From Primorskyibacter flagellatus (GTDB taxonomy: Bacteria > Pseudomonadota > Alphaproteobacteria > Rhodobacterales > Rhodobacteraceae): DNA of 64,000 nucleotides. The notes beneath the pieces are model-generated. The model was not told the origin of the DNA. It was given only the letters and a program-made list of their open reading frames with translations, and searched no databases. Positions 12,913-60,147 of the stretch are shown piece after piece (the first letter of the stretch is position 1; the number at the start of each line of letters is the position of its first letter). The position numbers and the translations under genes were made by a program. The stretch covers positions 1,166,338 to 1,230,337 of the forward strand of contig NZ_BMFJ01000001.1 in the NCBI RefSeq assembly GCF_014638275.1, read 5' to 3'.

Positions 12913-13148
12913 TTCGCGTCTTCGCCTTCGTAGAGGCTGATCGGTTGCGCAGGCATGATGGTCGAGATCGCGTGCTTGTACACCAGCTGCGACTGGCCGT
13001 CGCGGCGCAGCAGTACGCAGAAGTTGTCGAACCAGGTAATCACGCCCTGTAGTTTCACACCATTGATCAGGAAAATGGTGACCGGAACCTTTGTCTTGCG
13101 CACGTGATTAAGAAATGCGTCCTGCAGGTTCTGTCTGTCGGAAGCCAT
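12909..13148 (-). CDS. hfq: RNA chaperone Hfq
   Basis: Sm-like RNA chaperone of 79 residues that forms hexamers and helps small RNAs pair with messages. Visible: [13 protein letters not shown] at the N terminus, Sm1 with [13 protein letters not shown] and FDNF, and Sm2 with YKHAISTI; the short C-terminal tail is normal for alphaproteobacteria. The start was placed at 13148 with AAGG upstream; an 18-codon N-terminal extension is open but does not fit the family. It is cotranscribed with hflX and lies 142 bases after trkH. Confidence 0.96.
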
Positions 13149-53820: not shown

Positions 53821-56580
53821 GTGACGGATACGCCAGAACCCCCTGAAAACACAGAGGAAACCCCGCGCACGCCCTATGAGGGGCCGACGGTGTCGATCGC
53901 CGACGAGATGCGGAACTCCTACCTCGACTATGCGATGTCGGTCATCGTGGCGCGGGCGATTCCCGATCTGCGCGACGGGTTAAAACCTGTGCACCGGCGC
54001 ATCCTCTACGCGATGCACGAGGTCGGGAACACCTTTGACAAGCCCTACCGGAAGTCCTCGCGCCCCGTTGCGGACGCCATGGGCAAGTATCACCCGCATG
54101 GTGATTCCGCGATCTATGACGCGCTTGTGCGGATGGCACAGGATTTCTCCATGTCGCTGCCGCTGCTCGACGGTCAGGGCAACTTCGGCTCCATGGACGG
54201 GGACAAGGCGGCGGCCTTCCGTTACACCGAAGTGCGGATGGCCAAGGCGGCGAACTACCTGCTTGAGGACATTGACAAGGAAACCGTCGATTTCGAACTG
54301 AACTACGACGGCAAGGACCGGGAGCCGGTCGTGCTTCCTGCCCGCTTCCCGAACATGCTGGTGAACGGCGCGGGCGGCATCGCGGTCGGCATGGCGACGA
54401 ACATTCCGCCGCACAATCTGGGCGAGGTCTGCGACGCGACGCTGGCGCTGATCGAGAACCCGGATCTGTCGGTCGAGGATCTGATCGAATACATTCCGGG
54501 CCCCGACTTTCCGACAGGCGGCATCATGCTGGGCCGGTCGGGGGCGCGTAAGGCGTATCTCGAGGGGCGCGGGTCGGTCATCATCCGCTGCAAGCAGCAT
54601 GTGGAGGAAATCCGCAAGGACCGCTGGGCCATCGTCATCGACGAGATCCCCTATCAGGTGAACAAGGCCGCGATGATCGAGAAGATCGCGGAACAGGTGC
54701 GCGAGAAGCGGATCGAGGGCATCGCCCATGTGCAGGACGAATCCGACCGGCACGGCGTCCGCGTCGTCATCGAACTGAAACGGGATTCCACGCCGGACGT
54801 GGTGCTGAACCAGCTTTGGCGGTTCACCCCGATGCAGACGCATTTCGGCTGCAACATGCTGGCGCTGAACGGCGGGCGGCCCGAAACACTTACGCTGTAC
54901 GGTTTCCTGTCGGCCTTCATCGGTTTCCGCGAAGAAGTCGTCGCCCGGCGCACTGCCTACCTGCTGCGGAAGGCGCGCGAACGCTCGCATATCCTCTGCG
55001 GTCTGGCCGTGGCGGTGAGCAATGTGGACGAGGTGGTTGCGACCATCCGTGCCTCTGCCGATGCCGCCGAAGCGCGGGAAAAACTGATGACCCGCCGCTG
55101 GCCTGCCGGGGAGATCGCACCCTACATCCGGCTGATCGACGATCCGACCCACAAGATGAACGAGGACGGCACCTACAACCTGTCTGAAACGCAGGCGCGC
55201 GCCATCCTTGAGCTGCGGCTGCAGCGGCTGACCCAGCTTGGCGTGAAAGAGGTCACGGACGAGCTGGAGGAGCTGGCGGGCAAGATCAAGGAATACCTTG
55301 AAATCCTCGGCTCCCGCGACCGGATCATGGGCATCATCTCGGATGAGCTGAAAGAGGTGCGCGACCTGTTTGCCGTGCCGCGCCGGACGGAGATCGTCGA
55401 CTGGTCGGGCGACATGGAGGACGAGGACCTGATCGAGCGCGCGGAGATGGTCGTGACGGTCACCGCCGGCGGCTATATCAAGCGCACCCCGCTCGAGGAT
55501 TTCCGCAGCCAGAAACGCGGCGGCAAGGGTTTGTCGGGCGGCGCGATGAAGGATGACGACGCGGTCACCACGCTGTTCGTCGCCAATACGCATACGCAGC
55601 TTTTGTTCTTCACGACGGAGGGCATGGTCTACAAGCTGAAGACCTGGCGCCTGCCGCTTGGCGGCCGGACGTCGAAGGGCAAGGCGATCGTGAATATCCT
55701 GCCGATCCCCTCGGGCGTGTCGATTGCCGCCATCATGCCGGTGGACCGGGACGAAGAGGAATGGGGCGACCTGCAGATCGTCTTCGCCACCTCGGCAGGG
55801 ACCGTGCGGCGGAACGCGCTGTCGGATTTCACCAACGTGATGCGCAACGGCAAGATTGCGATGAAGTTCGAGGGCGAGGACGAGGGCATGCGCCTCATCA
55901 ACGCCGCGATCTGCGGGCCGGAGGATGACGTGATGCTGTTCACCCAGTCCGGGCGGGCGATCCGGTTCCGGGCGGATGACGTGCGGGTCTTCAACTCCCG
56001 CGCCTCGACCGGGGTGCGCGGCGTCAGGCTGAACGAGAAGGACGAAGTCGCGTCCATGTTCGTTCTACCGCATTTCGCGGCGGAATCGGACGAGCGTGCG
56101 TCTTACCTCAAGATGCGGCGGGCCATGGCCGGGGACGTCGAACAGACCACGGACGAAGAGGAAGGCAATGCCGACATGCCGCTGAGCCAGGAGCGCTATG
56201 CGGAGATGTCGGCGGCGGAAACGCTGGTGCTGACGATCACGGCGGGCGGTGCGGGGCATATCAGTTCCTCGCACGACTATCCGGTGCGCGGGCGCGGCGG
56301 GATGGGTGTCACGGCGTGGGAAAAATCCATGCGCACGGGCATCATCATCGCGGCTTTCCCGGTCGAGATGGACGACCAGATCATGCTCGCCACCTCCAAG
56401 GGTCAGTCGATCCGGGTGCCGGTTGACGGTATCTCCTTCCGGTCGCGGTCCGCGGGCGGGGTGAAGGTGTTCGACACGGGCAAGAACGAAACCGTGGTCT
56501 CGGTCGCCCGCATCGTCGAACAGGGCGAGGACGAAGGCGATACCGGCGACGCAGCCGAGGGTGGAACGGAAGAGGCCTGA
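53821..56580 (+). CDS. gyrA: DNA gyrase subunit A
   Basis: About 919 residues from the GTG at 53821. The active-site tyrosine is Tyr135 in AAFRYTEVR, and the quinolone region reads [14 protein letters not shown] with Ser96 and Asp100 (E. coli Ser83 and Asp87), the common sensitive residues. The GyrA box is SQKRGGKG in the DNA-wrapping domain. Near residue 780 an acidic insert ([16 protein letters not shown]) is typical of alphaproteobacteria. An upstream in-frame extension to 53746 has no support. The stop overlaps the next gene's ATG (TGATG). Confidence 0.95.
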
Positions 56581-57443
56581 TGTTGAAGGGAAGCGAGAGC
56601 CGGATAGAGAACTGGGACGACCTGCGCTACCTGATGGCGGTTCACAAGACCGGCAGCATGAGCGCGGCGGCCCGGCTGCTGTCCACCAACCCGGCCACCG
56701 TGTCGCGCCGACTGGCGCGGCTGGCCGAGGCACTTGGCTATGAGCTGTTCCACAAGACACCCGAGGGCTGGGTGGCAAGCGATGCCATCGGCACCCTGCT
56801 GCAGAGCGTGTCGAGCTTCGAGGGCGAGATCGAGAGCTATCTCAACGCCAACGTGGCCCTGGGCGGTCAGATCGGCGGGGCGATTTCCATCGGCATGCCG
56901 GGATCGCTGGCGTTCGGCGTGCTGTATCCGCGCATCGCGGAACTGACGCGGGACTATCCGGGCATCCGGCTGTCCCTGCATGCCCAGACCTACCGTGAGA
57001 CGCTTGGGGAAAACGACCTCATCATCTCTCCGATCCGGCCGCAGCAGGGGCGGCTGATCGTGAAGCCGATCGGCAAGGTCCATGCCAACGTCTACTGCAT
57101 GCCGGACAGTCCCCGGAACGAAGGATGGATCGGGCTGCATCGCGACCATGACATGTACGAACCGATGCAGCGGGCCATGGACATCATGGGCGGTCGTCCC
57201 CCGTCGCTGCGGCTGGAGAACCTGCACGACACGGCGGATGCGATCCGGGTGACCGGCCTGCCGGGGCTGACGCTGCGTATCGACGCGGCGCTCAACCCGG
57301 ACATGAAGCTGTATGAACCGTCCAATCCGGACACGGAAACCGCGCTTTATCTGTGCTATCACGAGACCCGCCGCCGCGATCCGCTGCTGCAGGCGGTGAT
57401 CGACTGGGCCGCGCGGGCATTCGAACTGGCCGAAGACCTCTGA
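56580..57443 (+). CDS. LysR family transcriptional regulator
   Basis: 287 residues. N-terminal winged HTH: ENWDDLRYLMAVHKTGSMSAAARLL, then TNPATVSRRLARLAEALG. The C-terminal substrate-binding domain starts near residue 95 (IGGAISIGMPGSLAFGVLYP). Its ATG shares one base with the gyrA stop, so it is probably cotranscribed and translationally coupled. Inducer and target are unknown. Confidence 0.88.
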   Translation: MLKGSESRIENWDDLRYLMAVHKTGSMSAAARLLSTNPATVSRRLARLAEALGYELFHKTPEGWVASDAIGTLLQSVSSFEGEIESYLNANVALGGQIGGAISIGMPGSLAFGVLYPRIAELTRDYPGIRLSLHAQTYRETLGENDLIISPIRPQQGRLIVKPIGKVHANVYCMPDSPRNEGWIGLHRDHDMYEPMQRAMDIMGGRPPSLRLENLHDTADAIRVTGLPGLTLRIDAALNPDMKLYEPSNPDTETALYLCYHETRRRDPLLQAVIDWAARAFELAEDL

Positions 57444-57629
57444 TCCCCCTGCCCGTCGTGCCTTCGGGCCGTCACGACTCCCACTCTCCCTGCGGTTGAT
57501 GCTGATTGGCGTCACAATCCGCGCAGATTTGGTTAATTTGTTCCAATGCGGGTTTTATCATACTGATTGACTTGAAGACTCAACCCAAGCGAGCAATATT
57601 CACAACTGCGCTACATCTTTGGTGTGGCT

Positions 57630-57835
57630 CTCGTTCCAGCTGTCGGGCGCCATTCTCCGGGGCTTTCTACCCAACCTCCCTGACGATGCGCTGGCAGCTG
57701 GAACGAGTCGGAATCAGGTCCGCTCTCTCAGGCCCGTTGGCCCTGTGGTCCTTGTTCCGGCGTTTTCTGTGGTCTGACGATCTACCCCGTCATTCCCTCT
57801 GGACACTGGGCCGGCGCTCGCGTCGGCCCATTTTT
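57630..57835 (+). ncRNA. Candidate structured RNA with three stem-loops
   Basis: Stem-loop 1: CTCGTTCCAGCTG (57630-57642) pairs perfectly with CAGCTGGAACGAG (57695-57707) and extends inward by about seven more pairs around a bulged G. Stem-loop 2: CGGAA (57709-57713) with TTCCG (57755-57759), enclosing CAGG/CCTG. Stem 3 is a Rho-independent terminator (57807-57835). No reading frame of note covers it; the whole 512-base gap 57444-57955 lacks a gene. The 5' end is not known; I see no clear promoter. It matches no RNA family I can recall. Confidence 0.55.
57807..57835 (+). terminator. Rho-independent terminator
   Basis: TGGGCCGGCG/CGTCGGCCCA stem closed by a short loop, followed by TTTTT. It starts 364 bases past the LysR gene stop and 149 before the porin-like ATG, so it ends something transcribed from inside the gap, probably the candidate RNA. 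Confidence 0.8.
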
Positions 57836-57955
57836 CTTGCCGCTTCCGGTCATCTGTGGGCTCGGGGGCGCGGGATGTTGCCATTGGCAAAGGGTTTGCC
57901 GTTTACTTGCATCCGGGCCGCGTCCGGCCGGACATCTGAGGTGGAAGGAATTGTC

Positions 57956-58666
57956 ATGAAACAGATTGGGACCTTGCAGGGTGCCGGATTGGCCGCCGGT
58001 CTTGCGATGGCGCTGACCGGTCATGCGGCGCAGGCGGAGAACGTCCTGCGCGGCGATCTGAGCTTTGAGCTGGGGCGCAACACGGATCGGTCGCGCAACT
58101 TCAAGCATATCTCAACCTCGCTCGGGACGGAGTTCGCGAACGGTGTCGGCGTGCAACTGGACCTCGCGCTCGGGAAGTACGAACAGCTGACCTCGACCCA
58201 GTCCTCCGCGGCCGTCCACCTCTATTACACGCCGACAGAGGCGGTTGCGGTCGGCGCCTACCTGCTCGGGGAAGATACGCGGCCAGGAAACTACGCCTAT
58301 TACGGGGCCGAGGTCGCCTATTCCGCCGACACCTGGCAGGCGGAGGCCTATCTCGCCTATCGCAAGGATCTGGGCGGCAGCAACGAAGGCACGCGCTATG
58401 GGGTGGAATTTGCCGCTGCGCCCGCCAGCTGGAACGGGTTCGGCCTGTTCGGCGCGGCGCACGGAGAGACCGATCTGCCGGGCGGGGACAAGTCCATCGT
58501 GACGGCGGGGGGCAGCTATACCTTCGGCAATGACAGCACGCTGGCGCTGGAGGTCGGACGCACCAACCTTGGCCATTCGGTCGCGTCAGTCAGCTACCGC
58601 ATCAACTTTGGCGAGGGCGCGCGGTTCTCGCGCCGGCACGCCATCGGAGCCTATGGCGCCTACTGA
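57956..58666 (+). CDS. Outer-membrane beta-barrel protein (porin-like)
   Basis: 236 residues with a signal peptide (MKQIGTLQGAGLAAGLAMAL, cleavage near AQAEN at about residue 28). The mature part has repeated amphipathic strands with aromatic ends such as YYTPTEAVAVGAYLLGE and YYGAEVAYSADTWQ, and ends in AYGAY with a C-terminal aromatic, as outer-membrane barrels do. GGAAGGAATTGTC precedes the ATG. The last seven bases overlap the convergent carboxypeptidase gene. Function unknown; it lies after an RNA candidate that might regulate it. Confidence 0.75.
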   Translation: MKQIGTLQGAGLAAGLAMALTGHAAQAENVLRGDLSFELGRNTDRSRNFKHISTSLGTEFANGVGVQLDLALGKYEQLTSTQSSAAVHLYYTPTEAVAVGAYLLGEDTRPGNYAYYGAEVAYSADTWQAEAYLAYRKDLGGSNEGTRYGVEFAAAPASWNGFGLFGAAHGETDLPGGDKSIVTAGGSYTFGNDSTLALEVGRTNLGHSVASVSYRINFGEGARFSRRHAIGAYGAY

Positions 58667-60147
58667 ATGTTGTAGAGGGCGATGAACTTCGCTTCGATAT
58701 AGTCCATCAGCGGGCCGGCCGTCGGAGCGGCCCCGCAGGCCCTTTCGATGACCTCCGCAGGCCGGTAGAGCCCGCCGTGACGCTGGACGTTTTCGCGCAG
58801 CCACGTCGTCGCCGGTGTGGTGTCGCCCTTCGCCAGATGGTCGTCGAGGTCGGGGATCGCCGCGCGCATCGCCTGATGAAGGCAGCCCGCGTAGACGTTG
58901 CCAAGCGAATAGGTCGGGAAGTATCCGAAGAGGCCGATGGACCAGTGCACGTCCTGCAGGCAGCCGAGGGAGGCGCGGGGCACGGCAAAGCCGAAATCCT
59001 TCTCGAACCGCTCGTTCCAGGCGCTTTCCAGGTCTTCGGGCTTCAGATCGCCAGAGATCAGCGCGCGTTCCAGATCGAAGCGCAGCATGATGTGCAGGTT
59101 GTATTGCAGTTCGTCGGATTCGGTGCGGATGAAGTCCTTCCGGACGCGGTTCACGGCGGCGTAGAAGGCGTCTGGTGTGGTGACTCCGATGTCGCCGAAG
59201 CTGTCGCTCATCCGGTCGTACATCCAGCCGGTGAAGGCACGGGAGCGGCCAATCTGGTTCTCGTAAATCCGGCTCTGGCTTTCGTGCACGCCCATGGAGA
59301 CGCCCTGCCCCAGTGGCGTCAGCGCGTAACCTGCGTCGATGCCCTGTTCGTAACAGGCGTGGCCGACCTCGTGGATGGTCGAATAGAAGCAGTTGAACGG
59401 ATCGGTCGGATTTGTGCGCGTGGTGATGCGCACGTCGGACCCGGAGCCGGAGGAGAACGGGTGCACCGCCTTGTCCAGCCTGCCGCGCGTCAGGTCATAG
59501 CCAAAGGTCGTGGCCAGTTGCGTGGCGAAGGCCATCTGCGCGGTTTCGTCAAAAGTGCCTGACAGCCCTTGCGGTTCGGGCTGTCCAAGCACCTTTTCCC
59601 GCAGGGTGCGCAGACGGGGGCGCATTTCGCCGAACATCGCGTCAAGCCGTGCGGCGGTCATGTCGGGTTCGTAATTGTCGATGAGCGCGTCGTAGGGATC
59701 GCCACCGTTTGCCAGTGCCTGCCCTTCCTCCTGCCGCAGGGCGACAACGCGGGTCAGCCAGGGAACGAAGGCGGTAAAATCATCGGCGGCACGGGCGGCG
59801 GCCCACTTGCCCTGGGAGATACTGGTGACGCGGGCGATTTCGGCGGCGAGTTTCCCAGGCACCTTCTGCGTCTTGTCGTAGTCGCGGCGGATGTGGCGCA
59901 GCATGGCGGCCTGCGCTTCTGTCATTTCTGCCGTTTCAGAAGCCGCCAGCCAATCGCCGATGCGCGGGTCGGTGCGGCGGGCGTGCAGGACGCCGGACAT
60001 CGCGGCGCTTTCCTCCGCCCGCTGTTCGGCGGCACCGGGGGGCATCATGGTTTCCTGATCCCAGTCGAGCCGTCCGGCGACACCGACCAGCGCCTCTGTC
60101 TCGTGCTGGTAGGCGAGCAGGTCGGTCAGGGCGTCGGCGGCGGTCAT
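58660..60147 (-). CDS. Carboxypeptidase M32 (Taq-type)
   Basis: Zinc metallocarboxypeptidase of 495 residues, cytosolic and usually homodimeric. The zinc motif HEVGH sits in the segment TIHEVGHACYEQG near residue 265, with downstream Glu in HESQSRIYENQIGRS; DVRITTR precedes them. The start MTAADALTDLLAYQHETEALV is typical. The stop overlaps the next gene by four bases with ctaA upstream (60144-60147). Role: peptide breakdown, details unknown. Confidence 0.92.
   Translation of the reverse strand: MTAADALTDLLAYQHETEALVGVAGRLDWDQETMMPPGAAEQRAEESAAMSGVLHARRTDPRIGDWLAASETAEMTEAQAAMLRHIRRDYDKTQKVPGKLAAEIARVTSISQGKWAAARAADDFTAFVPWLTRVVALRQEEGQALANGGDPYDALIDNYEPDMTAARLDAMFGEMRPRLRTLREKVLGQPEPQGLSGTFDETAQMAFATQLATTFGYDLTRGRLDKAVHPFSSGSGSDVRITTRTNPTDPFNCFYSTIHEVGHACYEQGIDAGYALTPLGQGVSMGVHESQSRIYENQIGRSRAFTGWMYDRMSDSFGDIGVTTPDAFYAAVNRVRKDFIRTESDELQYNLHIMLRFDLERALISGDLKPEDLESAWNERFEKDFGFAVPRASLGCLQDVHWSIGLFGYFPTYSLGNVYAGCLHQAMRAAIPDLDDHLAKGDTTPATTWLRENVQRHGGLYRPAEVIERACGAAPTAGPLMDYIEAKFIALYNIQ

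Follow-up and report, generated by a model that had tools for sequence, protein, structure and literature searches.

The 64,000-nucleotide stretch of DNA analysed here (the window) has a gap of 512 bases between the stop codon of a lysR-type regulator gene (57443) and the next ATG (57956), and the question raised by this gap is what the hairpins within it are for. An earlier note, which gave the same gap length, had placed in it a perfect 13-bp inverted repeat, a second hairpin and a strong terminator, and had suggested either a trans-acting small RNA or an attenuator for the downstream 'porin' gene, a name which is unproven since a Pfam search with the protein gave no match. The genes and RNA parts concerned are the following:

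56580 to 57443, + strand: lysR-type regulator gene (PF03466 and PF00126), the upstream syntenic neighbour
57631 to 57706, + strand: D1, the long hairpin that contains the perfect 13-bp repeat (folds and repeat search)
57707 to 57761, + strand: D2, the second hairpin domain (fold; match to model R3)
57771 to 57796, + strand: D3, a hairpin with the conserved loop AUCUACCC at 57780-57787 (genus comparison)
57797 to 57806, + strand: linker CUCUGGACAC from D3 to the terminator (alignment of 16 members)
57807 to 57838, + strand: intrinsic terminator, a 10-bp stem (57807-57830) and U-run (fold and terminator scan; covariation)
57956 to 58666, + strand: 'porin' gene, without Pfam match, between the RNA and the M32 gene
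58660 to 60147, − strand: M32 carboxypeptidase gene (PF02074), the convergent syntenic neighbour

Architecture and extent of the RNA

The hairpins described at the outset were all recovered. The perfect repeat has its arms at 57630-57642 (CTCGTTCCAGCTG, with a single occurrence in the window) and, as the complement, at 57695-57707, and in the fold it grows beyond 20 pairs, interrupted by small internal loops, in line with the roughly 20 pairs estimated before; the second hairpin (57707-57761) appeared in the same fold, and the terminator stem begins 364 bases past the end of lysR, exactly as had been stated. Folding of 57550-57840 gave z = -5.5, with none of 200 shuffles equally stable, and for 57568-57838 the + strand (z = -5.34) folded better than the − strand (z = -2.02), so that a transcript in the direction of lysR is the better reading. 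D3, which the earlier note overlooked, has the sequence GG..UGACG-AUCUACCC-CGUCA..CC, stands immediately ahead of the terminator and is the most conserved part of the RNA across the genus. The D1 loop contains one UCUACCC (57666-57672), so that the long hairpin first noticed displays the D3 motif a second time. In the window, the fold of the 85 nt ahead of D3 is no more stable than that of shuffles (z -0.2), and the predicted D2 is here taken as a degenerate form of a three-way junction modelled in the relatives.

Lying between genes and ending in an intrinsic terminator of its own with a U-run, the RNA fits in these two respects the class of trans-encoded, Hfq-dependent small RNAs, and it is single copy in the genome. 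Open frames through D3 vary in length across 20 genomes, with minima of 28, 13 and 20 codons for the three frames, and the same 20 differ in the length and place of their longest small ORFs; a stop-free frame that leads in the window from TTG 57506 into the next gene is taken as chance. The earlier note had not recognised the RNA, and an Rfam search of the window likewise returned no family for it: the sole match at cut-off was a xanthine riboswitch aptamer elsewhere (RF03054, 5439-5490, − strand, 50.6 bits with a cut-off of 36).

With regard to the 5' end, three promoter candidates lie upstream of D1:

57572 to 57600, + strand: promoter candidate TTGAAG-17-AATATT (scripted pattern scan)
57533 to 57561, + strand: promoter candidate TTAATT-17-TATCAT (scripted pattern scan)
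57537 to 57564, + strand: promoter candidate TTTGTT-16-CATACT (by eye)

A simple consensus scan in the window, 57533..57600 included, found no promoter. A weighted scan, which took the two best candidates per genome in 20 genomes and had no shuffled control, predicts RNAs of 255-262 nt in nine of them (G001, G002, G003, G009, G010, G012, G016, G017 and G021), seven of these nine candidates being of the type TTGnnn-17-CATAnT, and RNAs of 197-352 nt in the other 11. The two best candidates of the window lead to RNAs of 232 and 271 nt, the promoter being ambiguous here. Judged from these sequences, the RNA is likely to be transcribed from a promoter of its own. At some loci (L144, L147, L148, L149, L137 and L150) a palindrome of two TGCA copies a few bases apart was seen by eye within 60 bases after the lysR stop, possibly an operator of the RNA promoter; inspection of the window by eye showed none behind lysR.

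Distribution and conservation

When the whole region was used in a DNA search, 11 of 60 genomes gave matches; these include the own genome, and eight of the ten others matched only 30-70 bases of the 3' part; the matches in G004 and G032 were rejected as unrelated loci. The pattern CTACCCCGTCADNCCCT was found once each in 16 of the 22 genomes of the genus, with 0 matches for the reversed control. These 16 aligned members share TCTACCCCGTCA and CCCT, which is largely a consequence of their selection by that pattern; what they share independently of it is the GG in front of the hairpin, together with the stem and a terminator. A covariance model of the 3' part of the 16 pattern members (R1), which these match by construction, added G012 (60.5 bits), G001 (58.6 bits) and G006 (41.6 bits), bringing the number to 19 of 22; G019 gave a 22.1-bit match to R1 about 300 bases after lysR and is counted as a diverged member because of this syntenic place. 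In all, 20 of 22 Pseudooceanicola genomes carry the RNA behind lysR (16 by pattern, three by model and one by position), and the R1 search did not find it in G011 and G004.

Conservation is much higher in D3 and the terminator than elsewhere in the interval. D3 carries UCUACCCCG in 18 of the 20 RNA-bearing genomes (16 of them first found by that pattern) and is changed in G006 and G019; the same 18 genomes have UCUACCCCG at the D3 loop, where it would be accessible, which at the level of sequence and predicted structure establishes both the conservation of the putative seed and its loop position. A second CUACC is present in the 5' part of the RNA in four of the six members of the window's clade (the window's own genome G000, G002, G012 and G014), as an exact UCUACCC in G000, G012 and G014. 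G019 has the 5' copy only, in the form UCUACCU, and G006 has no CUACC anywhere and CUCCACC in its place; beyond the window's clade, a CUACC at a comparable distance is present in G020.

Scanning named genomes with the pattern gave 15 matches, of which 12 belong to Pseudooceanicola or 'Oceanicola' records and one each to a Maritimibacter record, a Rhodobacteraceae MAG and a Microbacterium; the last (L077) has no terminator after the motif and was taken as chance. The exact pattern was absent from the viral contigs. Both family model searches used stricter filters, with which weak matches are lost. With such filters, no credible relative was seen in 293 genomes of other genera in the family: 67 of 295 genomes, two of them of this genus, had matches at E <=0.01, the best outside the genus scoring 35.2 bits, and of the out-of-genus loci 28 were inspected by eye and looked like gene-end terminators, SorY-like RNAs or, once, coding sequence. 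The only out-of-genus match of a further model described below (R3) scored 29.8 bits in G313, where it falls on the terminator belonging to an unrelated gene. Loci L043 (28.4 bits) and L062 (24.3 bits) have no UCUACCC loop, were not found by R3 and were set aside, and we do not favour reading them as very distant relatives; these weak matches of the 3' model, from two other genera, lie near base 1500 and adjoin an M32 gene, as in the window. Among the genomes searched, the RNA would therefore appear confined to one genus, which we infer to be Pseudooceanicola.

The three-way junction and its loop complementarity

In most species a three-way junction stands upstream of D3, with about 11 pairs in its outer stem, a small GUUC-loop hairpin and a second hairpin. 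Model R2, built from two sequences, matched 20 of the 22 loci at E <=0.001, its two source sequences included, and the 15 best-scoring of these 20 rows make up alignment A8, in which 95.5% of cells are paired, compared with 28-50% for slid structures, and 22 of 38 pairs change on both sides, including 11 of 11 in the outer stem. The covariation score was 0.487 in A8 vs 0.162 (sd 0.017) in shuffled alignments, and 0.426 vs 0.134 when all 20 rows were used, the alignments being fitted to the structure and composed of related sequences; in four of the 15 A8 rows a terminator stem pair has also changed from C-G to U-A. The earlier note had proposed looking for covariation across the Rhodobacteraceae, and covariation is indeed present in the relatives, although within a single genus rather than the family, given the distribution of the RNA in the genomes searched.

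Ungapped 10-bp helices ahead of D3 were also searched for independently, and a perfect one was present in 12 of 21 sequences, vs 6.1% of 1,260 single-base shuffles; the window is among those 12, with a helix that differs from that of the predicted D2. When flanks were shuffled around a fixed core, most single D2 folds were not outstanding (z from -2.4 to +0.8 among the 13 that have a GUUC core), and the 5' part, with starts partly chosen by hand, had z <= -2.0 in nine of 20 genomes and z > 0 in four (G003, G008, G009 and G016); the support for the predicted D2 is comparative. R3, a model made from 15 other species with the window sequence left out, still recognises the window RNA, scoring 41.4 bits at 57702-57838 (E 2e-8 in the window), mostly via D3 and the terminator. 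Taken together with the Rfam search at cut-off, the comparison identifies the RNA, as predicted from sequence, as a member of a new structured RNA family.

GUUC, the D2 loop, and GAAC, found in the loop of the RNA's own terminator, are complementary. Fourteen of the 20 aligned rows have GUUC and all 14 of these have GAAC, and only G007 has GAAC among the six rows lacking GUUC; the contiguous complementarity in the 14 is 4-8 bases, counting stem edges and G-U pairs and with no null for its length. A GAAC loop was found in none of 43 other terminators of the genus DNA examined and in 10 of 13 family terminators read with the same strict script. When mapped on a tree of LysR from 21 genomes, the joint GUUC/GAAC label requires 3 changes, vs a shuffled mean of 6.7, which points to few independent events; we read these as a probable loss in the window's clade after the split of G014 (fork support 90/86, not firm) and a second one in the G007/G020 pair, with G007 keeping GAAC. 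The pair is missing in the window RNA and in most of its clade. The pattern is suggestive of a kissing contact between the GUUC loop and the terminator loop in the relatives. It is a speculative thought, and one we regard as rather doubtful, that this makes for a new class of compact RNA in which GUUC-GAAC kissing turns the terminator into a working part and UCUACCC is presented, the lineage without the pair carrying the second CUACC; if true, a terminator hairpin would double as a tertiary contact.

Function, gene neighbours and known RNAs

We favour, with a probability of roughly 0.6, a stand-alone small RNA of a new family, transcribed from its own promoter, which would act in trans by base-pairing, bind Hfq at its 3' end and mostly repress its targets. 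Such an RNA would be about 230-270 nt long, starting after lysR and ending at the intrinsic terminator; UCUACCC would serve as the seed for pairing with mRNAs, the exposed C-rich loop or loops engaging G-rich mRNA stretches that are GGGGUAGA-like or Shine-Dalgarno-like, Hfq would hold the U-rich 3' end, and in most species the GUUC loop of D2 may dock onto the GAAC loop of the terminator and compact the RNA. We infer the own promoter, the action in trans, the target pairing and the dependence on Hfq from these features of the locus and its relatives. The earlier note had hfq nearby, which agrees with a gene near 13124 of the window (− strand) that we take to be hfq-like from a protein motif. 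A search of targets for GGGGTAGAAG with an ATG in the next 25 bases gave nothing convincing, and TGACGGGGTAGA with one mismatch gave 38 matches in the own genome vs 22 when reversed, with nothing convincing among the 30 examined, one of which is the RNA's own antisense. Apart from the RNA itself, the own genome matches the complement exactly at one place only (G000:C1:909663), which has no convincing start codon near it, and a target match that recurs across the genus was rejected as the antisense of FYP codons within a gene (by eye).

The main rival of base-pairing is protein binding, in which the UCUACCC loop or loops of a structured RNA would capture an RNA-binding protein that is titrated or guided. 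A loop kept in 18 of 20 genomes on a stable hairpin, with a second CUACC in most of the window's clade, is equally able to bind a protein, and a large covarying D2 exceeds the needs of a simple antisense RNA; yet there are only one or two copies of the loop, the analysis named no protein with a UCUACCC site, and a doubled loop suits multi-seed antisense RNAs too, so we consider protein capture unlikely. The gene order bears on two further alternatives. Relatives of lysR were found in 21 of the 22 genomes of the genus and not in G004, and gyrA and lysR lie upstream of the RNA at all 16 loci of the pattern-found members. It could be proposed that the RNA is the 3' UTR of the lysR mRNA or a fragment processed from it, with the hairpins as stabilisers and the terminator serving lysR: the RNA is on the same strand directly behind lysR in the compared loci, G004 lacks both a relative of this lysR and the RNA, and the consensus scan gave no promoter. 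A terminator 364 nt past lysR, promoter candidates that predict similar lengths in nine of 20 genomes (the scan without shuffled control), the retention of lysR but not of the RNA in G011, and the much stronger conservation of D3 and the terminator than of the remaining interval all argue against it, and we hold a 3' UTR origin to be quite improbable. On the downstream side, the M32 gene was found at 14 of the 16 short loci, and at the other two (L021 and L031) a 'porin' relative follows the RNA. A 'porin' or related gene after the terminator on the same strand, as an attenuator or riboswitch would need, is found in the window and 10 other genomes, that is in 11 of 20 RNA-bearing genomes, but the remaining nine (G005, G007, G008, G010, G013, G014, G018, G019 and G020) have only the convergent M32 gene there, directly behind the RNA (G019 read by eye). 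Because the gene is absent in those nine, and because G011 has a 'porin'-related gene together with lysR and no RNA, a cis element of 'porin' is disfavoured, and the attenuator offered by the earlier note becomes highly improbable.

It is similarly hard to credit that the RNA is a distant homologue of SorY or mmgR. Sub-threshold matches at 57775-57844 scored 21.4 bits for mmgR and 20.1 bits for SorY, and the relative L014 scored 27.5 and 25.0 bits; these are far under the cut-offs (41 and 111, respectively), the L014 alignment rests mainly on linker and terminator, the loop and D2 differ, and each of the 22 genomes has a much better SorY-like locus elsewhere (42.0-66.1 bits), which in the own genome is at G000:C1:1584018-1584096, outside the window (44.6 bits). 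Weak Rfam matches to mmgR, SorY, CC3664 and BjrC1505, all below cut-off, were accordingly rejected. SorY (RF02651) does resemble this RNA in being short, terminator-ended and from the same bacterial family, with a similar ACUGGGCCGG terminator lead-in and a C-rich stretch before it, but its consensus has no UCUACCC loop and it occupies a separate locus in the same genome; mmgR/suhB (RF00519) shares the hairpin, C-rich linker and GC-rich terminator, but its model of 77 positions has no counterpart of D1 and D2. Exposed C-rich loops, sometimes several, are a feature of CcsR and the 'cuckoo' RNAs of alphaproteobacteria, where the loop is CCUCCUCCC; this RNA differs from them in its UCUACCC loop, its single copy and the large covarying junction upstream. 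As an observation apart, a SorY-like RNA was present in 22 of 22 Pseudooceanicola genomes (L088-L107 among the loci), always under the Rfam cut-off of 111, and a locus in another genus (L053) has two SorY-like motifs close together; it seems that a wider family goes unnoticed at the curated cut-off. SorY has its own promoter in Rhodobacter sphaeroides, according to PMC6238624. No description of the present RNA was found in the literature, in the accessible parts of sources that include PMC4809877, PMC6238624, PMC2864571 and PMC8632094, and among papers on Pseudooceanicola no small-RNA survey was found at the level of title and start of abstract.

For the marine genus Pseudooceanicola, the comparison brings to light a structured RNA family that covaries strongly, and it offers a precise seed for testing, for which the genus itself supplies natural variants with two copies, a moved copy and a lost copy.
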